Assembly (NCBI GenBank): GCA_018389105.1
Contig: JACATO010002451.1
Span: 506,001 to 570,000 of the forward strand
Origin: Nautilus pompilius
Lineage: Eukaryota; Mollusca; Cephalopoda; Nautilida; Nautilidae
Reading direction: 5' to 3'
DNA length: 64,000 bases
Position numbers and translations under genes: made by a program. Below, piece after piece: positions 27,616 to 29,920 of the stretch. How positions within the stretch are numbered: the first letter of the stretch is position 1; the number at the start of each line of letters is the position of its first letter. Below the pieces are notes generated by a model. The model was not told where the DNA came from and made no database searches. It saw nothing but the letters and a program-made list of their open reading frames with translations.

Positions 27616-29920
27616 CACAGGCCTGCAATGGAACAAGTGTCCGAAAACTAACAGCTGATTCTTATGGATTTCTGGGCGCTGTTTTCAGTAAAAATAGTTT
27701 TAAAATTCCATCACATACCATTTTTCCATAAACTCAAATTTTCGATTTCAATATCTACAGAATCACTGTATTAAGCTTCTAAACAAAAAACTCCTTTTTG
27801 CTGCCCCCTCTCCACACTCCCTACTTGGACTCAGTTGCACTTAGATCTTTGTGTGAGAAGCTTCTGTCATAACCGGTATATTTTTCCAGACCTGTCATTT
27901 CTGCAAAAGTTTACTTTTTTTTCTCCTTTTCCCTTAGTAGTTTTATTTGTGATTTTCTTCTGTTTATAAGTGTACTACATGGCTGCAAGGGTTTGTCTTA
28001 ATGCACCTGATAAGGTTTGTTACATTTGTGGGAACTTTGTAGTGAAGAAACAGACTTTGTTAAGAAAGTGTATTATGAGTATTTTTGTGTGAAACTCGGT
28101 GACCAGGATAAGCCCTGGGCCCTACATAAAGTGTGTTCTATTTATATGGAAGAACTCCGACAGTGGTCTCGGGATAAGAAAAGGTCTTTCCGTTTTGGGA
28201 CCCCTATGATCTGGAGGGAGCCCCAAAATCAGAGTGATGACTGTTACTTTTGTTCTTGTAACGTACAGGGGTTCAATCTAAAAAATAAAGAAATTTTCTA
28301 TCCGAACCTCCCGTCGGAAATACGCCATGTACCTCATGGCCCAGGTATACCAATACCTTTACCTCCAGAAAAACTAGAAGACACGCCTGAAGACTCTGAA
28401 AAAGAAGGCCAGGATTATTATGAGGACTTTCACTATGTTTCAGGAAGCAGCGAGCCCCAACGTTTTCCACAGCTTGAATTGAATGACTTAGTCAGAGACT
28501 TGGGTTTTCCTAAAGATGCAGCAGAATTGTTAGGCTCTAGGTTAAAGGAAAAGAACTTGTTGGCCTCTGGTACCTCGTTCTCATGGTTTAGAAATAGAGA
28601 AAAATATTTCATTCCATACATTACTAAAGAAGGTGACCTGGTTTACTGTATCGATGTCTCTGGACTGATGGAGAGGTTTAACATACAGTATGACGTGAAC
28701 GAGTAGAGGCTCTTTATTGACTCGTCAAAAAAACCCTCAAAGCAGTGCTTCTCCACAATGGCAGCAAGTACACTTCAGTACCAGTAGGGCATTCTGTGTA
28801 TCTGAAAGAATGCTACAAGAATTTAGCCTTAATTCTCACCGAACTGAAATACAAGGATCATGGATGGACGATATGCGGCGATCTGAAAGTAATTTCCATG
28901 CTTCTTGGACAGCAGGGAGGATACATCAAGTACCCCTGCTTCTTGTATGAATGAGACAGCCGGGATAGGGGCCAACACTGGATCAAAAAGGAGTGGCCGT
29001 GTAGGGTAGAATTAGAACCTGGAAGCAAAAATGTAGTACGAGAAAGTTTGGTTGATCCGAGGAAAGTCCTCCTGCCTCCACTTCATATCAAGCTTTGACT
29101 GATGAAACAATTTGTAAAGGCTCTGTCAAAAGAAGGAGAGTGTTTTAAATACCTACCCAACAAGTTTCTGGAACTGTCAGAAGCAAAAGTGAAAGAGGTG
29201 TTTTTGTCGGTCCAGATATTCGGAAACTTCTGAAAGATGATCATGATGTGTTTGAAACAAAAAATGGAAACAGTTGAAAAAGAGGCCTGGAAAGCTTTCA
29301 AAGAAGTTGTACAGAAATTTCATGGGAACTATAAGGACCCCAACTTTAAGTGTATTGTGGAAAACATGCTGATGAAATTCGAAGACTTGGGTTATTCGAT
29401 AAGCTTGAAGGTGTACTTCCTGAATTCTCATTTAGACTACTTCCCCGAAAATCTTGGCGCTGTTAGTGAAGAGCAGGGGGAAAGATTTCATCAAGATATC
29501 AAGGGGATGGAACGCAGATACCAGGGTAGGAGGAAGGTCAACATGATTGTAGGCTCCTGTTGGATGCTGCATAGAGAAGAGCCGCAAGCTGCCTACAAGA
29601 GAAAAAGTACCAAAAGGAGCTTTGAGGGAAAACGGAAAAGCCAGTATAAGGACTTGTAGAGGTGAGTAAGTGTTGAAAACGGTTTTCTATCAATAATTTT
29701 GTAAATGAAACTATTTTTAAAATTTTTTTTGCAAATAGATGTTTCAACCAGAATACGTATTAATAATCTCTCTCCCCATATTTTCGGATTCACTTTGTGA
29801 AAAATCCTCACGTGATAGAGAAAAATGACGGCCATATTTGAAATCAGCGCACCAGGCAACATAAGAATCAGTTGTAACATTGCAGACAATTTCCAATGGC
29901 CTCAATTATGCAGGCCTGGG
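27616..29920 (+). mobile_element. Unclassified DNA transposon, full-length but inactive
   Basis: The 2,305-bp unit is bounded by CACAGGCCTGCAA at 27,616-27,628 and, reversed, CCCAGGCCTGCAT ending at 29,920: 11 of 13 positions agree. Both sides are flanked by TTA, a possible target duplication (27,613-27,615 and 29,921-29,923). A non-coding leader of about 360 bp precedes a gene that fills most of the unit. A second, shorter element at 45.5-46.8 kb has a related gene and related ends (CACTGGTCAACAA). Together these say that the gene and termini travel as one unit. I know the protein family as a repeated, uncharacterised family in arthropod genomes, and I know of no superfamily name for it. Confidence 0.65.
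27979..29659 (+). pseudogene. Putative transposase of the unclassified element, broken
   Basis: The start is ATG at 27,979 (MAARVCLNAPDKVCYICGNF). The N-terminal part has a CYIC pair, then a C near 28,133 and a CYFC pair near 28,246, suggesting a zinc-binding domain. The middle reads ELNDLVRDLGFP...AELLGSRL...NLLA, then RLFIDSS, AVLLHNGSKY and WTICGDLKVISMLLGQQGG. The end reads LPPLHIKL, LNSHLDYFPENLGAVSEEQG and ERFHQDI, with a basic tail. Damage: a frame change near 28,060, a stop at 28,704, a frame change in an A-run near 28,728, W-to-stop near 28,952, G-to-stop near 29,098 and another frame change near 29,190-29,240. The 229-codon (28,017-28,706) and 140-codon (29,237-29,659) pieces remain open. 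Intact length would be about 550 residues. The D of IDSS, the D of GDLK and the E of SEEQGER are candidate catalytic acids by inference. Confidence 0.75.

Follow-up and report, generated by a model that had tools for sequence, protein, structure and literature searches.

Does the long broken gene in this stretch of DNA belong to a mobile element, and if so, is its protein of a kind already known? We have studied this question in a window of 64,000 nucleotides of the Nautilus pompilius genome, the whole stretch that was analysed. The locus at 27616..29920 on the + strand is a cut-and-paste DNA transposon of 2305 bp, containing a broken transposase gene and having TTA on either side. Its features are as follows.

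27613..27615, no strand: left target-site duplication TTA, preceded by A
27616..27627, + strand: left terminal inverted repeat CACAGGCCTGCA, the conserved start of the family
27635..27666, + strand: left inner part of the inverted repeat, 32 nt, 78% complementary to 29860-29891
27979..29659, + strand: remnant of the transposase gene, its start an ATG picked by eye, with frame breaks and in-frame stops, and with open relatives
28018..28253, + strand: cysteine-rich N-terminal region, candidate Chapa-type zinc finger, its cysteines invariant among three families
28018-28032, + strand: CYICG, within the cysteine-rich region
28134-28148, + strand: CSIYM, within the cysteine-rich region
28242-28253, + strand: CYFC, within the cysteine-rich region
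28713..28730, + strand: conserved motif FIDSSK, proposed first catalytic D
28874..28891, + strand: conserved motif CGDLKV, proposed second catalytic D
28934..28948, + strand: C(2)C motif, decayed to PCFLY (PCFLC in most copies)
29075..29089, + strand: LH motif, PPLHI
29414..29431, + strand: H(4)H motif, decayed to YFLNSH (HFLNSH in most copies)
29477..29497, + strand: conserved motif GERFHQD, proposed last catalytic E
29860..29891, - strand: right inner part of the inverted repeat, pairing with 27635-27666
29909..29920, - strand: right terminal inverted repeat, TGCAGGCCTGGG as read on the + strand and CCCAGGCCTGCA on the - strand
29921..29923, no strand: right target-site duplication TTA, followed by T

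At 12 bp the outermost repeat is short, and it is imperfect. The inverted match between the terminal 80 bp at either end has a score of 38, whereas 5000 randomly placed pairs with this spacing scored 35 at most. The right end of this copy is GGG where the usual right end of the family is GTG (CAC on the - strand), and GGG is the same end with one base decayed. The gene remnant survives as open pieces of 230 aa and 141 aa together with smaller ones, and this copy has lost one residue each from the C(2)C and H(4)H motifs.

The element was used as the query in a search of its own genome, covering 728 Mb in 2558 contigs. Of 1146 candidates 40 were scored, giving at least 50 matching rows, mostly with 85-92% identity; among the matches listed, most span from base 1-5 to about base 2300 of the 2305. 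At least dozens of copies of this first family exist in the genome. We fetched 39 of them with their flanks. Both ends were recognisable in 33, most being exactly CAC..GTG, with lengths of 1579-2412 bp that were mostly 2.3 kb; in the remaining six, one end was lost or too changed for the threshold. Pairwise identity within the family has a median of 87.4% (703 pairs; range 81.7-99.9%), indicating that the family is old. The longest open frame among the 39 fetched copies is 459 aa.

The 300-bp flanks of the 39 copies and of the window copy were compared all against all. Similarity stops at the common ends, and only two pairs have flanks that are alike, L027/L030 and L054/window copy. L054 sits in a 5.3-kb stretch that is 99.75% identical to the window, and is therefore a duplicate or second haplotype rather than an independent copy. 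The segment 26137-31420 of the window has its 99.75% copy on contig C2019, and further matches pair between contigs C2314 and C2019 at offsets of about 144-145 kb; these contigs look like two haplotypes or a large assembly duplication.

The window contains a second element, of a related family.

45457..46831, - strand: second element, internally deleted, 1375 bp, with terminal repeats CACTGGTCAACAA and flanks TAA and TTA
45763..46356, - strand: C-terminal part of the transposase of the second element, a 197-aa open frame (P0002)

The terminal repeats of this element are perfect over 13 bp, and its terminal 80/80 score of 28 was reached by 2 of 5000 random pairs. On searching with P0002, all 150 of the places scored (the best 150 of 6047 first-look candidates) matched at 91-100%, so that the second family appears larger than the first. 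Many of these matches have open frames longer than the piece used in the search. The second family may be both abundant and fairly young. Our sample comprised 30 of its loci, including the window copy (L065) and a duplicate pair (L071/L072), of which 28 could be oriented and 26 keep both ends. In one of them, L066, a frame is open over 618 aa and, counted from a methionine, encodes a protein of 554 aa.

A search with the first-family copy L062 gave at least 113 rows (109 scored of 7172 candidates). Among the matches listed are copies of the first family, most of them interrupted by stops, and a group of about 30 rows (53-55% identity) whose open frames reach 582 aa; two of this group were fetched as L095 and L096. 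These two share 57% identity with one another, and L096 shares 54% with L062; identities to L066 are 49% for L095 and 51% for L096. L095 has the ends CACAGGGG..CCCCAGTG with TTA on either side, and for L096 no CAC..GTG ends with TWA were found within the stretch examined. In L066, L095 and L096 the transposase is open in one frame. Related families in the same genome thus retain open frames of full transposase length.

The fetched copies were used to define the target site. In the first family identical 3-bp flanks occur in 18 of 33 copies (TTA 8, TAA 8, ATA 2), a count that takes in the duplicates L030 and L054, compared with 330 of 1056 (31%) in a control of mismatched pairs (p 0.005). The excess is modest but real. 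An A precedes the duplication in 25 of these copies and a T follows it in 29. The second family behaves similarly, with identical flanks in 15 of 26 (TTA 10, TAA 4, ATA 1) against 234 of 650 in the control (p 0.02), A before in 25 of 26 and T after in 23 of 26. Among the 33 identical 3-mers from both families, 30 are TTA or TAA and three are ATA. The target is A-TWA-T, with a 3-bp duplication of TWA.

Empty sites were sought with the joined flanks from each of 16 copies, and 40 of 114 places were scored. Continuous or adjacent matches were obtained for L032 alone, at six places, and the other 15 copies gave none among the places scored. L032 has the arrangement TTA-element-TTA, and the paralogous empty sites L097 and L098 carry a single TTA. 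One further place carries CTA, and in the remaining three the sequence around the junction is missing, so that they are uninformative on the TTA.

In 15 of 33 first-family copies and 11 of 26 second-family copies the two 3-bp flanks differ. We pooled both families with four more loci (three usable), dropping the duplicates L030 and L072. TWA is present on both sides in 42 copies; the middle base is the same on both sides in 31 and different in 11 (TAA versus TTA). This agreement is above that expected from independence (p 0.0014), supporting a true duplication. Over 60 copies, omitting the second-family loci L075 and L089, whose left ends are weak and probably false (the count of 42 is unaffected), A/T differences at positions 1, 2 and 3 number 7, 15 and 6, i.e., the middle position is unequal about twice as often as its neighbors. 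The mismatch could arise from decay, from wrong anchoring or from a real effect at insertion, and is compatible with all three. In the last case one end might carry an old flanking base, or the ends of two different elements might be joined.

The protein is the next source of evidence. Comparing P0002 with first-family copy L038 over 182 codons, differences at the three codon positions number 71, 48 and 111. This pattern indicates that the sequence evolved as protein, with coding constraint acting between the families. In the three open proteins L066, L095 and L096 the residues D254, D308, C327-x2-C330, LH376, H485-x4-H490 and E507 are invariant, as are C13, C16, H54, C57, C60, H89, C93 and C96 in the N-terminal region; the latter were likened to the Chapa zinc finger by description rather than by model or sequence. 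The conservation and position of D254, D308 and E507 would suit a catalytic triad, an assignment made by eye; E504 and E517 are equally invariant.

The motifs were counted in the 39 first-family copies as patterns in three-frame translations, so that the numbers are lower bounds. The C(2)C motif appears as PCFLC in 26, PCFWC in 2, PCCLC in 2 and PCSLC in 1, against PCFLY in 4 and PCFLF in 3. PPLHI is present in 27 and other LH forms in 7; HFL(N/D/H)SH in 28 (26 of them HFLNSH) against YFLNSH in 1; and FIDSSK in 24. We considered the HGERFH block (H505..H510 in L066) as the H(4)H motif and rejected it, since its first position is Q in the first family, L095 and L096. This puts H(4)H at HFLxSH (H485..H490), a block that all three open families conserve, and puts the last E at GERFHQD.

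Searches of Pfam, NCBIfam and PDB sequences gave nothing significant, and the Pfam transposase models matched none of the proteins scanned, including the three open frames of 554-582 aa. The lack of a Pfam model may explain the label 'uncharacterised', and the lack of a domain-library match would be consistent with a family that is listed in repeat libraries but missing from domain libraries. No relatives were found in phage, plasmid, viral or prokaryote collections, as expected for an animal transposon. The DNA pattern for GERFHQDI occurs at 15 prokaryote and 2 viral contig loci, where tblastn shows nothing beyond the motif itself, and a literature search found no mention of GERFHQD.

What kind of transposon is this? 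PMC4079192 gives CAC/GTG termini and duplications of 3 to 4 bp as hallmarks of Chapaev elements, with TWA duplications between A and T in Chapaev3, and counts C(2)C, LH and H(4)H among the motifs of Chapaev. PMC12730594 assigns C(2)C and H(3-4)H to the wider CMCT clade and treats Chapaev3 as a sublineage of Chapaev, and PMC4411706 reports that the N-terminal zinc-finger 'Chapa' domain is present in Chapaev3 too. In our material CAC..GTG ends are found in 33 of 39 first-family copies, 26 of 30 second-family loci and L095; they were not found in the stretch of L096 examined, and the window copy ends in GGG. The TWA duplication between A and T occurs in both families, and C(2)C, LH and H(4)H are present and invariant among the three families with open frames. 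Together with a length of about 2.3 kb and a protein of about 555 aa, these traits point to Chapaev3, and it is very probable that the window element is a decayed, once autonomous DNA transposon of the Chapaev3 group, in the Chapaev-Mirage-CACTA clade. We strongly infer this membership from hallmarks matched to published descriptions rather than from comparison of protein sequences. It looks like a new, apparently unnamed family of the known Chapaev3 kind, and not a new type of transposon.

The first-pass annotation had described a cut-and-paste element with these inverted termini and TTA on both sides, and had proposed that copies be collected and their flanks aligned. That part stands, borne out by the inverted-match score, the ends common to the repeat family, the unlike flanks outside the two duplicate pairs, the TWA duplications and the empty sites. 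It had further described the transposase as of an uncharacterised type, without a superfamily. This is not supported: the termini, duplication, element size, gene length and the motifs C(2)C, LH and H(4)H all match Chapaev3. Its caution that the protein may exist in repeat libraries is likely the right answer. Its overall interpretation thus survives as a cut-and-paste transposon with TTA duplications, and not as a new superfamily.

Several observations sit less comfortably with Chapaev3. For one of the two further families fetched, L096, no CAC..GTG ends with TWA were found in the stretch examined, and unequal flanks are frequent in both the first and the second family. PIF/Harbinger elements make 3-bp TWA duplications, so that both the length and the sequence of the duplication would suit an element of that kind. 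However, no Harbinger-type DDE transposase domain is matched in Pfam at E up to 1, the motifs C(2)C, LH and H(4)H belong to the CMC elements and the ends are CAC..GTG; we regard PIF/Harbinger as very improbable. EnSpm and Transib were considered as well and set aside on the points of comparison given below. Still less credible is a host gene family with inverted ends arising by chance. The short, imperfect outermost repeat would allow it, but exact ends common to copies in unlike flanks, and the empty sites, contradict it.

A CMC-clade element other than Chapaev3 is the closer rival. PMC12730594 describes CA..TG ends, duplications of 2-5 bp, C(2)C and H(3-4)H as common to the whole clade, so such motifs by themselves do not single out Chapaev3, and reports CAC ends with 3-bp duplications in EnSpm too. 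Against this, the TWA between A and T, the size of the element and the length of the protein agree with Chapaev3 specifically, and we consider the alternative unlikely. A compound version, in which the related families are an unnamed CMCT lineage outside Chapaev3 and the middle base sometimes differs (TAA versus TTA) already at insertion, is more doubtful again.

For the Chapaev3 reading a mechanism can be proposed, in which the shared ends, the target, the TWA duplication and the coding constraint are observed. A transposase of about 555 aa would have bound the CAC(A/T)GG inverted ends, probably through its cysteine- and histidine-rich N-terminal region. Excision would be catalyzed by a DDE (RNase H-like) core, with putative zinc ligands in C(2)C and H(4)H holding it together. 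Joining with a 3-bp stagger into A-TWA-T targets would then generate the TWA duplications.

Comparison with known systems places the element more closely. Chapaev proper makes 4-bp duplications and so differs from the 3-bp TWA duplication here, although CAC..GTG ends and the CMC motifs are shared. Transib elements make 5-bp duplications. The spacing in RAG1 is 19 residues from D to C and 20 from H to E, compared with 19 and 17 here. Transib and RAG1 resemble the present proteins in having C(2)C and H(3-4)H between the second D and the last E, according to PMC12730594; RAG1 itself was not matched in the Pfam or PDB sequence searches. From the same source, EnSpm/CACTA elements share CAC..GTG ends, 3-bp duplications, C(2)C and H(3-4)H, and are unlike in the strong A-TWA-T target found here. 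The EnSpm transposase domain had no Pfam match at E up to 1, although Pfam may not cover animal EnSpm. The closest likeness is to Garfield, with Garfield_BM being given in PMC4079192 as 2,289 bp and 556 aa, against 2,305 bp and about 555 aa here; ends, TWA inside A..T, C(2)C, LH and H(4)H also agree, compared by description. The same paper describes the transposases of Garfield and Merrow as having two exons, unlike the single open frame of L066, L095 and L096, and most other Chapaev3 transposases as open in one frame.

A protein that has no Pfam model thereby gains a likely identity as a Chapaev3-type transposase, and a transposon origin can be suspected for genes that are labelled only 'uncharacterised' and contain PPLHIKLGL, HFLxSH and GERFHQD. 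The open frames of the related families in this genome would be suited to tests of how relatives of Transib and RAG1 work. Elsewhere in the window, two tandem arrays of one and the same TGACGTCAGTACAGAGAG-like unit lie at 8225-8575 and 12891-13904, in opposite orientation and about 4.3 kb apart.
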